From Occallatibacter riparius (GTDB lineage: Bacteria; Acidobacteriota; Terriglobia; Terriglobales; Acidobacteriaceae): DNA of 64,000 bases. Below are positions 19,749 to 27,230 of this stretch, piece after piece. The DNA is taken from NCBI RefSeq assembly GCF_025264625.1, contig NZ_CP093313.1:5642001-5706000 (forward strand), in the 5' to 3' direction. How positions within the stretch are numbered: the stretch's first letter is position 1; the number at the start of each line of letters is the position of its first letter. The notes under the pieces were generated by a model. That model worked only from the letters and a program-made list of their open reading frames with translations, was not told the origin of the DNA and did not search any database. The position numbers and the translations under genes were made by a program.

Positions 19749-20585
19749 ATGCAGAACTGGAAGGTGATCGTCTCTTACGACGGCACGGACTATAGCGGGT
19801 GGCAGGTGCAGCCGGGGCGGGCTACGATCCAGGGCGAGTTGCAGGCGGCGCTGGGACGGGTGACGGGCGAGTCGCCGCTGCCGCAGGGGTCGGGGCGGAC
19901 CGATGCGGGGGTCCATGCGCTGGGGCAGGTGGCGAGTTTTGGGCTGGCAGCGCCAATTCCAGCGGACAATCTGCGGCGCGCGCTGAACCGGACGCTGCCG
20001 GCGGCGATCCGGGTTGTGGAGACCATGGTGGTTCCGGCGGCGTTTCACGCGCGGCACTCGACCGTGGCGAAAACATACGAGTACAGGGTCTTTCTGGAAA
20101 GGCGACGGACCGGGCCTGATGAGGCCGATCCGAGCTATGCCGTGGTGTGCCCACCGTTTCTGGCACGGTATGTGTACTCGTATCCGTGGCCGCTCGACTT
20201 TGGGGAACTGGAACGAGCCGCGGCGTCGTTTGTGGGGACGCACGATTTTCTGAGCTTTGCGGCTACGGATCCGGACGAGACGACGCGCTCGGCGGCAGAT
20301 AACGAGGAAGACATGACTACGCTCGGTGCCGTGCGGACGGTTTATCGGTCCTGGTGGGAACAGAAACAGACGGACGAGGGGACCATGCTGTTCTATCGAG
20401 TCCGCGGGAACGGATTTCTGCACCATATGGTGCGGAACCTGGTGGGGACGATGCTGGACGTGGGGCGCGGATACCGGCGCGCGGAGGAGATTCCGGGGAT
20501 GATTGCGGCAAAGGCCCGGGCTGCGGCCGGGCCGACTGCGCCGCCGCAGGGGTTGTTTCTGCACTCGGTGGAGTACCCAGAGTAA
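19749..20585 (+). CDS. truA: tRNA pseudouridine synthase A
   Basis: Isomerises uridines 38-40 in the tRNA anticodon arm. The 278-residue protein has the catalytic Asp-52 in 'GSGRTDAGVHALGQV', the N-terminal strand 'VIVSYDGTDYSGWQVQP', and the late motif 'FYRVRGNGFLHHMVRNLVGT'. Length is typical. The start MQNWKVIVSYDGTDY matches homologues. The last 153 bases (20433-20585) are present a second time at 23237-23392, beyond the next gene, which makes this region a rearrangement junction. Confidence 0.95.
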   Translation: MQNWKVIVSYDGTDYSGWQVQPGRATIQGELQAALGRVTGESPLPQGSGRTDAGVHALGQVASFGLAAPIPADNLRRALNRTLPAAIRVVETMVVPAAFHARHSTVAKTYEYRVFLERRRTGPDEADPSYAVVCPPFLARYVYSYPWPLDFGELERAAASFVGTHDFLSFAATDPDETTRSAADNEEDMTTLGAVRTVYRSWWEQKQTDEGTMLFYRVRGNGFLHHMVRNLVGTMLDVGRGYRRAEEIPGMIAAKARAAAGPTAPPQGLFLHSVEYPE

Positions 20586-20733
20586 CGAGCGGGCTGATCT
20601 GCGACAGGCTCTATCTACCTGTGCGTACCCTGCCGACACTGATAGATTTCTTACCAAGCCGGAACGGCGAGCGCCGGACGCGCCAGCCGGGGAGCGCCTT
20701 CCCCAATCAGCGCCCAGGATAGGAATATCGAGG

Positions 20734-23163
20734 ATGAACAACGTGCGGCAGGATCTGAAGTATTCTCTGCGCCAGCTGCTGCGGGCAAAGGTGTTCACGG
20801 CTGCCGCTGTTCTCACGGTGTGCCTGGGCATCGGTTGCAACACGGCTATTTTCAGCGTGGTGTATGCGGTGCTGATTCGGCCGCTTCCCTTCCCCGCGGC
20901 CGACCGGCTGGTGCTCATTTACGAGCAGGCGGCGAAGTTCCCCACGCTGTCGGCCTCTTTCCAGAACTATCGCGATTGGAAAGCGCAGAGCACGTCGTTC
21001 GAGGAGTTCGGAGCCGTGCGTCCGGTAACGGTTTCGCTGACCGGCATGGGAGAGCCAGAACAGATTCCGGCGGAGATGATCAGCGGGAATCTGCTGCACC
21101 TGCTGGGAGTGGATGTGGTGACGGGGCGGGGCCTTGGCGAGGCAGACGACAAGCCGGCCTCGCCGGCCGTGGCTCTGCTGGGCTATGGAATGTGGCAGCG
21201 CAAGTTCGGCGCGTCGCAAGGAGCGCTGGGCCAGAGCATCAAGCTCAACGGCCAGGCGTATACCGTCGTCGGCGTGTTGCCCAGGGATTACGAAATGCTG
21301 CAGCAGCGGCCCGACGCTGTGATTGCGATGGCTCCGTGGGCTGCAACACTGCCCGACGATCGCTCATGGCATCCAGGGATTTTTCCGGTAGCTCGCCTGC
21401 GCAACGGAGTGTCCCTGGCCGCGGCGCAATCGGAGATGAGCGGTATTGCGAAGCGGCTTCTCAAGCAATATCCGACCGACAACATTGCGCTCGATGCCCA
21501 GGTGAAGGGCATGCACGAGCAGTTGGTCAGCAGTTCGCGGACGGTTCTGATCATGCTCTCAGTAGCGGTGGGATTCGTGCTGCTCATTGCCTGCGGCAAT
21601 GTTGCGAATCTGCTTCTGACGCGGGCCGCGGCGCGACGGCGCGAGATCACGATTCGCCGCTCTCTGGGCGCGACCACGTGGGCACTGGTGCGGCAGTTGC
21701 TGATCGAAGGGTTGGTGTTGTCCGGGATGGGAGCGCTGATCGGGATCGGCGTGGCATACGCGCTTTTGCCGTGGCTGGTGCGGCAGGCGGGCAGCGCGCT
21801 TCCGCCGAACACCCCGGTGCAGATCAATCTGCCTGTCCTGCTGTGCACCGCCGCCCTGTCTATCGCAGCGGGAGTTCTGTTCGGAATGGCGCCGGCCGGT
21901 CAGGTGCAGAACCTCGACCTGCGCGGAATCTTGAGCGAAACCGATCGCGGAACGGTAAGCCGCGGCTCGCGGATGCTGCGTGATGCGCTGGTGATTGCGG
22001 AGATATCGCTCGCGCTGCTGCTGCTAGTGGGCGCAGGATTGTTTCTGCGCAGCCTGTCGCAACTGGCTAACGTGCAGCTTGGCTTCGCCGAGGATCACCT
22101 TCTGGTGGCGGACCTGCCTGTGGGCGCGCAGTATAAGGAGGGAGCCGCGGCGCCGATGAATTTCTATGAGAATGCGATCCGCGAACTGGCTCGTTTGCCC
22201 GGCGTAAGTGCGGTTGGCGCGGCGTCGTTCCTTCCAGTTAACGGAAATGGATCGATGCTGCACTTCAACATTGAGGGCCGGCCGCCGCATAACGCTTCTG
22301 AATACATACTGGCCAACTATCGTGCGGTAAGTGGAGGGTATAAGGATGCGCTCCGCTTGCCGCTCACGGAAGGCCGCTGGGTTACGGATGCCGATCGCGA
22401 GGGCTCCCCGGCGGTTGTGGTCATCAACCAGACCATGGCGCGCACGTTCTTCCCTGGACAGGATCCGCTGGGCAAACGCATGCAGGTGGGCGCGATTCCC
22501 GATGCAACGGTGCCGTGGATGACGATCGTCGGCGTGGTCGGGGATGTGAAGCAGTCGCTGGTGGCCGACTCGGCGAGCGAGATGTACGTGCCTTATCGCC
22601 AGGCGAATGTGGTACTGCCTGTCCGCACCATGAGTGTCGTCGTACGAACGGCATACGATCCTCACGTGGTGGCGGCAGCACTTACAGACGCGGTGCATCG
22701 TGTGGATGCAAACCAGCCCGTGGTCCGCATCAGGACTATGGAAGAAAACGTGGCGCAGAATTTTGCCGCTCCCAGGTTCCGCAGTCTCTTGTTATCGATC
22801 TTTGCGGGGATCGCGCTGGTCATTGCGTGCGTTGGCATCTACGGGGTGATGGCTTACAGCACGCTGCAGCGGACAACGGAGATGGCGATACGCATGGCTC
22901 TGGGATGCAGCACTTCCAAAGTCTTTCTGATGGTGATCAAAGACGGCCTCCGCAAAATCGCGTATGGGGTCGTCATCGGGCTCGCTCTTGGACTGGTGTT
23001 GGCGCGGTCCGTCAAATCGCTGCTATTTGGCGTATCCACGACAGATAGCGTGACGCTGGCGGTATCCATATCTCTGATTGCCGCCACGGGCATGTTGGCC
23101 TGCGTGATACCGGCGATCCGGGCTGCGCGCGTACCGATCGTGGAGACGATACGGGAGAATTAA
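20734..23163 (+). CDS. MacB/FtsX-like permease, acidobacterial duplicated orphan permease (ADOP) type
   Basis: 809 residues in the classic ADOP layout. It starts 'VRQDLKYSLRQLLRAKVFT', then the first helix 'AVLTVCLGIGCNTAIFSVVY', a MacB periplasmic core domain (about 45-250), an FtsX domain of three helices (about 275-400, with 'LLTRAAARRREITIRRSLGA'), a second periplasmic domain, and a final FtsX domain (about 680-809, 'RTTEMAIRMALG'). It has no ATPase domain and no adjacent ATPase gene. Acidobacterial genomes carry many such genes of unknown substrate. Start ATG at 20734 with AGGA nearby; upstream codons overlap truA. It lies between the full truA and a truA 3' fragment. Confidence 0.9.
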   Translation: MNNVRQDLKYSLRQLLRAKVFTAAAVLTVCLGIGCNTAIFSVVYAVLIRPLPFPAADRLVLIYEQAAKFPTLSASFQNYRDWKAQSTSFEEFGAVRPVTVSLTGMGEPEQIPAEMISGNLLHLLGVDVVTGRGLGEADDKPASPAVALLGYGMWQRKFGASQGALGQSIKLNGQAYTVVGVLPRDYEMLQQRPDAVIAMAPWAATLPDDRSWHPGIFPVARLRNGVSLAAAQSEMSGIAKRLLKQYPTDNIALDAQVKGMHEQLVSSSRTVLIMLSVAVGFVLLIACGNVANLLLTRAAARRREITIRRSLGATTWALVRQLLIEGLVLSGMGALIGIGVAYALLPWLVRQAGSALPPNTPVQINLPVLLCTAALSIAAGVLFGMAPAGQVQNLDLRGILSETDRGTVSRGSRMLRDALVIAEISLALLLLVGAGLFLRSLSQLANVQLGFAEDHLLVADLPVGAQYKEGAAAPMNFYENAIRELARLPGVSAVGAASFLPVNGNGSMLHFNIEGRPPHNASEYILANYRAVSGGYKDALRLPLTEGRWVTDADREGSPAVVVINQTMARTFFPGQDPLGKRMQVGAIPDATVPWMTIVGVVGDVKQSLVADSASEMYVPYRQANVVLPVRTMSVVVRTAYDPHVVAAALTDAVHRVDANQPVVRIRTMEENVAQNFAAPRFRSLLLSIFAGIALVIACVGIYGVMAYSTLQRTTEMAIRMALGCSTSKVFLMVIKDGLRKIAYGVVIGLALGLVLARSVKSLLFGVSTTDSVTLAVSISLIAATGMLACVIPAIRAARVPIVETIREN

Positions 23164-23236
23164 CTTAGCCGTTGCCCGCTCAGGGCCATGCCGCAACCGG
23201 AGCGAGATTCTGCCCGGAATTATCCACTCCGAGGGG

Positions 23237-23392
23237 CGGAACCTGGTGGGGACGATGCTGGACGTGGGGCGCGGGTACCGGCGGGCTGAGGAGATTTTGG
23301 GCATGATCGCGGCGCGGGCGCGGGCGGCAGCCGGGCCTACGGCGCCTCCACAGGGGCTTTTTCTGCACTCGGTGGAGTACCCCGACGTTTGA
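23237..23392 (+). pseudogene. truA: second copy of the truA 3' end
   Basis: 156 bases repeat the end of truA (20433-20585) in frame, from 'RNLVGTMLDVGRGYRRAEE' through 'QGLFLHSVEYP' to a stop (TGA 23390-23392), with several mostly synonymous differences and a two-residue different end (DV versus E). There is no start and no upstream truA sequence: homology begins abruptly at 23237. The permease gene is therefore bracketed by direct copies of this segment. Confidence 0.9.
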
Positions 23393-23617: not shown

Positions 23618-25918
23618 ATGAGTTTCTTGTTGCGCAGACTGCGGGTTTTCTGCGTCTCATGGATGGTCGCCGGTTGGGCAGTGGCGGCCTGGGCGGGACC
23701 TTCTCAGGAATCTCCAACGAGCTCAGGATCAGTGTCCGCCCAAGGCACGCTGACGATGCTGCGGCAGGTTGCCGCACTCGACAACTCAATAGCGAAGCAG
23801 GGCCTTCCGGTCGACTTCGAAGCAACGGTTATCTTCTCAAGGGGTTTCGAGAACCTCCTGTTTGTGCAGGAAGGCAGCGATGCCATTTTTGTGCGTCCGC
23901 CTTCGCGCGACAACTACGCACCGGGCGATCTTATCCGCATTCACGGCAAGACGCAGAACAGCTTCCGGCCGATCGCGCTGAGCGACAAGATCACCGTGAC
24001 CGGTCACGGCGAGTTGCCAAAGCCGGTGGAGGCGAGCTTCTGGGACCTGGTAAAGGCAGACCTGGATTGCCACCGGGTGACAGCGCGCGGGCGAGTGCGT
24101 TCGGCCGATATGGGCAACCCTCACGATGGCAGGGTTGATACCGCCCGGCTGCAACTGGTGACGGAGGGCGGCCACTTCGAAGTCGATGTCAACTCCGGCG
24201 ATCGAGCCGCTCTGCAAGGGCTGCTGGATGCGGAGGTTGAAGTCAGCGGCGCGGCTGCCGGGAAGTTCGACGACAAAATGCAGCAAACCGGTGCGGTGAT
24301 ATATGTAGCGCGCCTGGATGATATTCGCGTGCTGAAGCGCGACGGGAAAGCCATCAGAGACCTGCCCATTATGCCAATGGACCGGATCCTCGAAGGGCAT
24401 CGCGTAACGGATACGTCAGTGCGGGTGAAGGTGCACGGCACCATCACCTATTACCAGCCGGCTGTGGCGGTAGTGCTGCAGGATGGCAACAAAAGCTTGT
24501 GGATCGAGACGCACACACGAGACAACCTGACCATCGGCAATCAGGCGGATGCAACCGGCTATCCCGACGAGCATGACCGCATCCTGACGCTGGCGGACGG
24601 AGAGATCCGAGATCTGCAGATTCCTGGAGTGGTGAAGCCGCTCGAGGCCACCTGGGAACAGCTCGCGTTCTGGAGCACGAACACCCCCGTCGGCCATGAG
24701 AACGACCTTGTCTCGATCCAGGGGCGGCTGGTGACGAAGGTGCGCGAGCCTTCACAGGACGAATACGTGCTGGACGCAGGCGGGCGCCTGTTCTCCGCAA
24801 TCCTTCGGCATGCTGGAAGAGACGTGGCACCGATGGCGCAGTTGCCGGTCGGCGCGATGGTGCGGGTTACAGGAATCTGCACGATACCGGATTTAACGGC
24901 CATCAATCCCGGTGGCTATGTGCCTTTCGAGATTCTGCTTCGAACGCAGGAGGACTTGCTGATGATTGAGAATCCGCCGTTGCTGAGCGTGCGGAACTTG
25001 ATCATTCTGGCGGGCATTCTGCTGCTGATCGCCGTGGTGGCAATGATCTGGGGCTGGAGGCAGGAGCGCAAGGTGCACCACCAGGCCGACGCCATGGCGC
25101 AGCTGGAGCAGCGCCGCAGCGCGATCCTGGAGAGCATCAATCATGCGCGTCCGCTGGCCGAAGTGCTGGAGCATATCACGGAGCTGGTTTCCTCAAGCCT
25201 GAACGGAGCACCCTGCTGGATTGAAGTGGCGGACGGCGCAACGCTGGGGCGCAAACCGGCAGCGGGCGCGGGGCCCGCCATCACGCAGGAGCTGACCAGT
25301 CAGTCCGGCGTAAAACTGGGGAAGATTCACGTGGCAACGAAGCTTGCGGCGGGGCTGCGGGCGCTGGAGACGGGAGCGCGCGTAGCGGTGCTGGCCATCG
25401 AGACAAACCGGCTCTACGCCGACCTGACATACCGGTCTGAGTTCGATGCGCTGACGGATGCACACAACCGGTTCTCGCTCGATCGGGCATTGGACAAACA
25501 GGTGAGCCGCGCGCGGACGAATGCGACGATCTTTGGGCTCATCTATATCGACCTGGACGAGTTCAAACAGGTGAATGACGAGTACGGGCATCATGTCGGC
25601 GATCTTTATCTGCAGGAGATAGCGGCGCGGCTGAAGCGACAGTTGCGACCAGGCGATATGCTGGCGCGGCTGGGCGGAGACGAGTTCGCAATCCTGGTGC
25701 CGGATGCGCACAATCGTCGCGTTGTGGAAGAGATCGCGCGCAGGCTGGAGTCCTGCTTCGCAGCACCGGCGGAGCTTGAAGGGAATACGCTCACGGGATC
25801 GGCGAGCGTTGGCATTGCGGTGTATCCGGAAGATGGCGCGAGCAGCGACGAATTGCTGAAGACTGCCGATGCCGCGATGTACGTGAAGAAGAAGACAAGA
25901 ACCTCTGCGAAAGCCTAG
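23618..25918 (+). CDS. membrane-bound diguanylate cyclase (GGDEF)
   Basis: 766 residues. Signal/anchor at the start ('VFCVSWMVAGWAVAAWA'), a periplasmic part of about 430 residues with repeated OB-like/beta segments, one transmembrane helix near 463-483 ('LIILAGILLLIAVVAMIWGW'), a cytoplasmic GAF-like stretch, and a C-terminal GGDEF domain (about 605-766). The active-site motif 'LGGDEFAIL' (GGDEF at residue 686) is intact, so c-di-GMP synthesis from two GTP is expected. The inhibitory I-site RxxD (RPGD) lies five residues before it, so product inhibition is likely. The input signal is presumably periplasmic. Start ATG at 23618 chosen for the signal sequence; the frame is open upstream. Confidence 0.92.
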   Translation: MSFLLRRLRVFCVSWMVAGWAVAAWAGPSQESPTSSGSVSAQGTLTMLRQVAALDNSIAKQGLPVDFEATVIFSRGFENLLFVQEGSDAIFVRPPSRDNYAPGDLIRIHGKTQNSFRPIALSDKITVTGHGELPKPVEASFWDLVKADLDCHRVTARGRVRSADMGNPHDGRVDTARLQLVTEGGHFEVDVNSGDRAALQGLLDAEVEVSGAAAGKFDDKMQQTGAVIYVARLDDIRVLKRDGKAIRDLPIMPMDRILEGHRVTDTSVRVKVHGTITYYQPAVAVVLQDGNKSLWIETHTRDNLTIGNQADATGYPDEHDRILTLADGEIRDLQIPGVVKPLEATWEQLAFWSTNTPVGHENDLVSIQGRLVTKVREPSQDEYVLDAGGRLFSAILRHAGRDVAPMAQLPVGAMVRVTGICTIPDLTAINPGGYVPFEILLRTQEDLLMIENPPLLSVRNLIILAGILLLIAVVAMIWGWRQERKVHHQADAMAQLEQRRSAILESINHARPLAEVLEHITELVSSSLNGAPCWIEVADGATLGRKPAAGAGPAITQELTSQSGVKLGKIHVATKLAAGLRALETGARVAVLAIETNRLYADLTYRSEFDALTDAHNRFSLDRALDKQVSRARTNATIFGLIYIDLDEFKQVNDEYGHHVGDLYLQEIAARLKRQLRPGDMLARLGGDEFAILVPDAHNRRVVEEIARRLESCFAAPAELEGNTLTGSASVGIAVYPEDGASSDELLKTADAAMYVKKKTRTSAKA

Positions 25919-25961
25919 CTCGGCGAAGACATCGCCGCTGCTGCTACCCTGAAAAGTGGGT

Positions 25962-27230
25962 ATGCCTCTGTCGTCAGTTCCTTCCGCCTACTCTCGAGTC
26001 ACCACTCTGGCAGCCAAGCGGGCCATTCATGCGGCCTTTGCGTGGCTGCACGCCAATGCGAAGACCATACTGGATTGGCAGATGGAATTGTGCGCGATTC
26101 CAGCGCCGCCGTTTGGCGAGCAGGCGCGGTCGCAATGGATGGAGGCGCGGTTCCGGGAGATCGGCCTTGACGGGGTGACCATTGATGAGGTGGGCAATGT
26201 GCTGGGTTTATTGCCATCGCCGCACCTGAGCCCGGAGAGCACCGGACATGTGGTGGTGCTTTCGGCACATCTGGATACGGTGTTTCCTGCGGAGACTCCG
26301 CTGCAGCCTCAGGTGCGCCTGGTAGATGGAAGCGAGCGCATTGAAGCGCCCGGCTCGTGCGACAACGGTGCAGGCGTGGTAGGCATGATGGCGATTGCGC
26401 AGGCGCTGGTGAAGTCGAAGGCGGAGTTACCTGCGGCGTTGCTCTTTGTGGGCAACGTGGGCGAGGAAGGCGAAGGCGACCTGCGCGGCGTGCGGCACTT
26501 GTATCAGCAGCCAGCGCTCGCCGGGCGGATTGCGGCACACATCGTGCTGGACGGAGCGGGCTCGGACGCCGCTGTAACGCAGGCGCTGGGAAGCAAGCGC
26601 TACCAGATCACGATCAGCGGACCGGGCGGGCATAGCTTCACTGATTCGGGGACGCCGAATCCGATTACGGCGATGGGTTCGGCGCTCGCGGCACTGGCAG
26701 CTACACCGCTGCCGGATGATCCGCGGACGACGCTGAATGTGGGAACCATTCACGGCGGGACGAGCGTGAATTCGATTCCGGAGAGCGCCGTGGCGACAGT
26801 TGATTTCCGATCGACCAGCGCCGATGAGCTGGTGCGGCTGGAAGTGGCGCTGCACCGCGCGGTAGAAGATGCGGTTGAGCACTGGAACAGGCGCACGGCG
26901 CCGGCGAACCGGCTACGCGGATTACTGAGTTACAAGATCGATATGATTGGCAACCGGCCGGCAGCGATGCTGCCGGATCAATCGCCGATCCTGGAGGGGT
27001 TGCGCGCGGTGGACCGCCATCTTGGTTTGAGTTCCGGAGCGCGACTGGGCTCGACGGATGCGAATATTCCGATCTCGCTAGGGGTGCCTTCGCTCTCGCT
27101 GGGAGCAGGCGGCGATGGTGGCGGTGCGCACACGGTGGCGGAGTGGTATTCCACCAAGGATCGCGAGACAGGCCTGCGGCGCATTCTGCTGCTGACGGCG
27201 GCGATGCTGGAGTGGGCCGCCGAGCAGTAG
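25962..27230 (+). CDS. M20-family metallopeptidase
   Basis: About 422 residues, cytoplasmic, with dinuclear zinc peptidase motifs in order: 'VVLSAHLDTVFP' (His/Asp), 'SCDNGAGVVGMMAI' (bridging Asp), 'VGNVGEEGEGDLRG' (catalytic Glu pair), 'GPGGHSFTDSGTPNP' (dimerisation-domain His), 'LGSTDANIP' and 'GGAHTVAEWYS' (last His). This is the pattern of M20 peptidases/deacylases of the tripeptidase type. Natural substrate unknown. Start at ATG 25962 or GTG 25956. It lies on the same strand as the cyclase before it and the amidohydrolase after it. Confidence 0.92.
   Translation: MPLSSVPSAYSRVTTLAAKRAIHAAFAWLHANAKTILDWQMELCAIPAPPFGEQARSQWMEARFREIGLDGVTIDEVGNVLGLLPSPHLSPESTGHVVVLSAHLDTVFPAETPLQPQVRLVDGSERIEAPGSCDNGAGVVGMMAIAQALVKSKAELPAALLFVGNVGEEGEGDLRGVRHLYQQPALAGRIAAHIVLDGAGSDAAVTQALGSKRYQITISGPGGHSFTDSGTPNPITAMGSALAALAATPLPDDPRTTLNVGTIHGGTSVNSIPESAVATVDFRSTSADELVRLEVALHRAVEDAVEHWNRRTAPANRLRGLLSYKIDMIGNRPAAMLPDQSPILEGLRAVDRHLGLSSGARLGSTDANIPISLGVPSLSLGAGGDGGGAHTVAEWYSTKDRETGLRRILLLTAAMLEWAAEQ

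Follow-up and report, generated by a model that had tools for sequence, protein, structure and literature searches.

In the 64,000-nucleotide stretch of the Occallatibacter riparius genome analyzed here (the window; contig NZ_CP093313.1, positions 5,642,001 to 5,706,000), the tRNA pseudouridine(38-40) synthase gene truA is followed by a gene for an ADOP-family permease and then by a second, displaced truA 3' end. On balance we lean towards the explanation that a fragment carrying the truA tail of a close relative together with the ADOP permease entered the genome at truA, through a single homologous exchange at one end and an illegitimate join at the other. The spot is unusual but the event is of a known kind, and the arrangement is known from one genome only.

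The truA gene (19749-20585, on the forward strand, as are the other window features described here) is complete, encodes 278 amino acids and matched TIGR00071 at 168.7 bits (cut-off 142.85) as well as PF01416. Its 3' end recurs past the permease, as the preliminary description of this DNA had stated: positions 20432-20581 and 23236-23385 form a direct repeat with an offset of 2804 in which 130 of 150 bases are identical, and blastn aligned the truA tail with the displaced copy over 153 nt at 86.3%. The copy does start abruptly, at 23236; it corresponds to truA from codon 229 onward and extends to 23392 in a frame that is open throughout, with no stop or frameshift ahead of its own stop codon at 23390-23392, and its product matched PF01416 (E = 1.1e-9). 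When the TruA protein was compared with the whole genome, truA and the displaced copy were the sole matches at E ≤ 0.001, and since the copy matched with an E-value of 8.7e-26 its similarity is not due to chance. The permease gene between the two tails (20734-23163) is intact, with a match to TIGR03434 of 849.8 bits (cut-off 622.3) that spans positions 1-802 of 803, and it has two MacB_PCD/FtsX halves recognized by PF12704 and PF02687, two stretches each. The 72 bp from the permease stop to the abrupt start of the displaced tail (23164-23235) would hold the illegitimate join; they gave no blastn match at E ≤ 0.01 within the loci searched, and the join is not placed to the base. One junction thus lacks extended homology, at the abrupt copy start, while the other lies inside the shared gene, where identical bases give way to a divergent in-frame tail.

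This second junction has the appearance of a mosaic. The first 39 bases of the two tails are identical (20432-20470 and 23236-23274), forming the longest identical run between them, the second longest being 23 bp, and the rest of the truA tail (20471-20582) has diverged from the displaced copy, such that 16 of 38 third positions and 5 of 76 first and second positions differ in codons 241-278. For comparison we took pairs of relatives with 25-60% third-position divergence in codons 241-278, after excluding two loci without the motif (L135 and L147), reducing 80 sequences to 66 distinct ones and discarding any pair in which under 36 codons could be compared. None of the resulting 718 pairs, which are mutually non-independent, was without a third-position difference in codons 229-240, where the mean difference was 0.42 to 0.50; by simple count, the probability of zero differences over these 12 codons is 0.0014. 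Outside the 718, four pairs were below 25% divergence, and in one of these the block had no third-position difference; of the 1423 pairs above 60%, none lacked such a difference. Because no comparable pair of relatives shows such identity, the identical block and the rest of the tail have different recent histories. The abrupt change from full identity over 39 bases to divergence marks a recombination mosaic, and it is likely in this block that the homologous exchange, or else a later conversion, took place.

The divergence between the tails is mainly synonymous, as had been noted before, with 15 synonymous and 3 non-synonymous codon differences. With one branch neutral and equal site rates, the probability that third positions take at least 16 of the 21 differences is 0.007 to 0.013; it is 0.096 if third positions are expected to take 60% of them. 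The tails have probably diverged as functional genes, which would mean that the displaced tail is not a decayed duplicate, a reading that is favored but not decisively so. In trees the two tails were sisters, with support of 0.944 for codons 229-278 and 0.875 for codons 241-278, and the relative next to the pair was genome G008 (support 0.649 and 0.716, respectively); the same genome was nearest in the tree of the truA 5' part, there with support of 0.317 only. Separate trees of this kind had been proposed earlier as a check on the origin of the tails; they establish the sister relationship, but the tail trees rest on 50 codons without any close relative and so do not orient the event. Since the tails are each other's closest relatives, the donor would be a close, unsampled relative. 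Over codons 241-278 the left tail (that of truA) was nearer to 40 relatives and the right (displaced) tail to 21, with five equal. At first and second positions the right tail was not more distant from relatives than its counterpart (the numbers of matches differed by -0.20 on average), and at third positions the left tail had 1.97 more matches to relatives than the right. Residue 255 is K in the left copy and R in 50 relatives; residue 249 is L in the right copy and P in 50 relatives.

The window genome is a single contig of 6.79 Mb and 100% complete. It belongs to a genus sample of 80 genomes, and the comparison of truA neighborhoods in relatives that the preliminary description had suggested was made on 60 truA loci (one per genome) from the 79 others. 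The window carries, in order, truA, the ADOP permease, the displaced truA tail, a GGDEF (diguanylate cyclase domain) gene at 23618-25918 (PF00990, TIGR00254) and an M20-type peptidase gene at 25956-27230 (PF01546), which by synteny is the usual downstream neighbor of truA. The M20 gene lay downstream of truA in 56 of the 60 genus loci, with gaps of 23-2020 bp and neither a permease nor a GGDEF gene between; the remaining loci (L099, L102, L106, L118) had neither gene within 1034 to 6000 bp after truA. The truA-M20 order is ancestral. A second truA tail downstream of truA was found in none of the 60 loci over the stretches covered. The nearest match of the GGDEF gene in the genus search was 55% (G011). 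In 15 of the 56 loci (for example L112:6104-6819) the gap from truA to M20 contains a Phd/YefM-ParE toxin-antitoxin pair, and in two more it contains one gene of the pair, so other members of the genus have also acquired accessory genes here. The 57-residue TruA C-terminus was also compared with 398 family genomes, 375 of which had a match. Double matches occurred in the window genome and four others; in three of the four (G073, G274, G340) they were overlapping contig ends of 95-98% identity, and in G124 the second match was a different full-length gene. No further displaced truA tail was therefore found among the 375 genomes with a match, although very short remnants or those in draft gaps could escape.

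Other ADOP places in the window genome were at most 39% identical to the window permease, so it is no recent in-genome duplicate. Under a strict cut-off the best match among 200 family genomes was 51%; another search found orthologues at 62-63%, in G002 and G009 and away from truA, with flanks that differ from one another and from the window when reading frames are compared by eye (tblastx was confounded by other ADOP genes). No genome with truA adjoining this permease, the expected donor arrangement, was found. The window permease has neither the N-terminal extension nor the PadR partner that many ADOP genes have; of the 61 other ADOP reading frames of the genome, 34 carry an extension of 60 amino acids or more. 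ADOP genes are numerous in these bacteria, with 65 places in the window genome at E ≤ 1e-20, the window permease included, and at E ≤ 1e-30 there were 57 matches in G002, 45 in G005, 71 in G008 and 60 in G009.

If the permease was captured as we propose, the donor fragment would have consisted of the tail of a close relative's truA followed by the ADOP permease. An exchange in or beside the 39-bp block would have kept truA whole while giving it the donor tail after about position 20470; the other end of the fragment would have been joined without homology, leaving the recipient's own tail past the permease as an abruptly starting remnant, with the older GGDEF and M20 genes remaining behind it. 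The preliminary description had likewise proposed that a truA-permease segment from a relative was inserted by homologous recombination within truA. That proposal is favored by the mosaic, the synonymous bias and the sister tails, but it has to be amended, since homologous recombination in truA makes one join and cannot alone make both, so that the other must be illegitimate. The synonymous divergence and the sister tails fit an insert from a close relative, and the donor search was empty. In the simplest route the donor fragment, with a trimmed truA part, would re-circularize and integrate by a single crossover; homology-facilitated illegitimate recombination (HFIR) of a linear fragment would give the same product. 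In HFIR proper, recipient DNA is usually deleted (PMC3240628). The recipient tail here is duplicated and the deletion expected of strict HFIR is not seen, for which reason we prefer the single crossover of a circle. We infer the foreign origin of the insert and the direction, with the left tail as donor and the right as native, along with this route and an insertion of the GGDEF gene that would have preceded the capture.

A survey of the window genome covered 63 ADOP genes on 44 stretches (502 kb), and repeats flanking ADOP genes were recorded in ten rows from six regions plus the window. One further comparable scar was present among the 63 genes, at locus L196 (G000:C1:6309500-6323000), where a complete PadR gene (PF03551) and an ADOP gene are followed by an abrupt 168-bp copy, 98.2% identical and displaced by 2858 bp, that reproduces the final 75 bp of padR plus the initial 97 bp of the ADOP gene (the two overlap by 4 bp). 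The copy opens a second ADOP gene whose body has 13-45% identity per 60-column block past the first block. The arrangement with both copies is also present in the sister species G002 (L248, G002:C1:4317500-4327500), where the copies are 92.5% identical to each other, and identity between the two species is 91.7-92.8%. Because identity within the window genome exceeds that between the species, this is an old scar, and gene conversion has homogenized the two copies in the window genome. It cuts both ways, showing that ADOP genes have undergone insertions of this type more than once and also that repeat identity may be secondary. Repeats also flank ADOP genes at L181, L184, L191 and L198, and a 123-amino-acid frame across the L181 repeat had no Pfam match. 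Separately, G+C-rich repeats of 70-76 bp, 81-88% identical and about 2.9 and 4.9 kb apart, were seen at L201 (569-642 and 3444-3519) and L198 (2254-2323 and 7196-7265), and these are perhaps interspersed intergenic repeats of the window genome.

Several points weigh against capture from a relative. Neither a donor genome nor a sister strain was found, which leaves direction and foreign origin unproved, and on the counts of nearer relatives given above the claims of the two tails to be native are almost equal. The earlier statement that the original 3' end was displaced holds to the extent that a displaced tail is real and little decayed, but either tail may be the native one. The informative codons number just 38, and the 39-bp identity could stem from later gene conversion of the kind that occurs in this genome between the PadR/ADOP repeats. 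In an unlikely mirror image of the proposed event, the left truA would be native and the permease already present, and a donor truA-tail-GGDEF(-M20) fragment would have been attached behind the permease by an illegitimate join and completed by a homologous exchange further downstream. This would suit the absence of the GGDEF gene as well from the truA loci sampled in the genus, and the greater number of relatives nearer the left tail in codons 241-278, but it calls for an extra exchange to produce the 39-bp block at the start of the remnant and hence for three joins rather than two. We regard as quite unlikely an in-place tandem duplication of the truA-tail-permease segment, with loss of the second permease, divergence of a useless tail and partial gene conversion. 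It would explain the abrupt start without a donor, its tails would be sisters, and the conversion that it needs is the one seen at the PadR/ADOP scar. A useless tail should however change at all codon positions, whereas 16 of 21 differences fell at third positions, a bias that allows decay following duplication in place to be rejected under certain assumptions only (P from 0.007 to 0.096); nor was there any trace of a second permease copy. A tandem duplication of the whole of truA, named at the outset as an observation that would speak against insertion, is not what the window contains, the duplicated part being the truA tail only. Relatives having both copies, the other observation named there, did not occur among the 60 genus loci.

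The restored gene, displaced tail, 39-bp core and divergent homologous tail also have the anatomy of an attachment site in a protein gene, and a small element could have integrated site-specifically at the truA 3' end, restoring the gene and displacing the old tail before its integrase was lost. We consider this very improbable. The insert (20471-23235) holds the permease alone and no integrase, the core, even with up to three mismatches allowed, has no occurrence in the genome besides these two, and truA is not used recurrently, with no other displaced tail in the 375 family genomes with a match; moreover, the truA tail had no match in a phage collection and the sequence involved at the second ADOP scar is another one, the PadR/ADOP start. 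For want of an integrase, a recurrent site and a core common to the second scar, site-specific integration was dropped as a lead. A transposon or insertion sequence element was also rejected, as there are no terminal inverted repeats and the three weak inverted pairs all lie inside the permease gene. No break in GC content was seen between 20500 and 25999, which is uninformative on origin. That the arrangement occurs in one genome only would be compatible with an assembly error, but such an error is extremely improbable in a complete single-contig genome, and the differences between the tails at 20 of 150 bases make a collapsed or doubled repeat unlikely.

The preliminary description had further suggested that scars of this kind explain how ADOP permeases spread in Acidobacteria. 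Support for this is limited: there is the one further scar, shared with the sister species, and there are shared 5' ends among neighboring ADOP genes, which are also explicable by gene conversion. Among ADOP genes of the window genome whose N-terminal extension measures 60 amino acids or more, five of seven adjacent tandem pairs reached at least 0.60 identity in the 60 residues before the core, with bodies at 0.30-0.35, as against 3 of 548 non-adjacent pairs outside the array in which four of these five pairs sit. In four other genomes, sampled through 27 of 30 permease-match loci and 13 regions chosen for neighboring ADOP genes, adjacent pairs reached 0.60 in 8 of 12 cases, as against 1 of 11 for non-adjacent pairs on the same stretch and 1 of 159 for pairs on different stretches, identical proteins and pairs above 95% in the body being excluded. 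Independent cases are few, as some loci are orthologous between genomes (at least L196 and L248). Locus L186 (G000:C1:2068500-2087500) is a five-gene ADOP array with repeats at the 5' ends. In ADOP arrays such as those at L186, L244, L245, L247 and L249 neighbors often share the N-terminal extension (about 0.6-0.9 identity) and their bodies are as unlike as those of unlinked ADOP genes.

Two explanations remain for the shared 5' ends, 5'-anchored capture and local gene conversion. We advance as a rather doubtful suggestion that ADOP permeases spread and stack in Terriglobales by capture in a shared upstream anchor, with resident sequence pushed behind, where the anchor might be the tail of a housekeeping gene such as truA, the tail of a PadR gene or, in an ADOP gene already in place, its N-terminal extension. 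If so, ADOP arrays would be constant-5'/variable-3' structures comparable to Rhs or type VI secretion system (T6SS) effector arrays, which would help to account for the presence of dozens of diverged ADOP paralogues in a single genome. At truA itself the proposed event would have left a readable footprint of an accessory permease gene captured beside a housekeeping gene without harm, with the borrowed tail in use and the old tail a scar. Scars of such a kind can date and orient gene capture, and this one, taken with its counterpart at PadR/ADOP and with the 5' ends that adjacent ADOP genes have in common, offers a testable route by which the large, poorly understood ADOP family may grow in Acidobacteria.

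Displacement of a gene's 3' end by an insert is familiar from prophage e14, which integrates at icd so that the gene regains a divergent homologous tail and the old tail is displaced. At truA, unlike e14/icd, there is no recombinase and no recurrent use of the site, and the core differs at the second ADOP scar. The window permease is a full-length member of the ADOP family (TIGR03434), but unlike most surveyed ADOP genes it sits in a scar and has no N-terminal extension. The route that we prefer resembles one seen after E. coli conjugation, where 56 of 60 recombinants selected in an HFIR assay (PMC3240628) gave a polymerase chain reaction product for partial target duplication, and the duplications in 14 sequenced clones measured 109-950 bp and were explained by a single crossover of an end-trimmed circle. 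Both cases would combine one homologous exchange with partial duplication of the target gene, here of about 150 bp; the E. coli duplications arose from a plasmid under laboratory selection with identical homology (PMC3240628), whereas the truA case is natural, involves diverged sequences and has no plasmid genes left. In the T6SS clusters of Vibrio cholerae, HFIR has been proposed for displaced 3' effector ends and orphan immunity genes (PMC5361080). As there, the insert at truA would be anchored in a shared 5' part and joined illegitimately downstream, with the old 3' end and the gene after it pushed behind it; the V. cholerae clusters are proposed to have gained effector-immunity modules in repeated rounds (PMC5361080), whereas in the window a housekeeping gene and a permease are involved, once, at truA.

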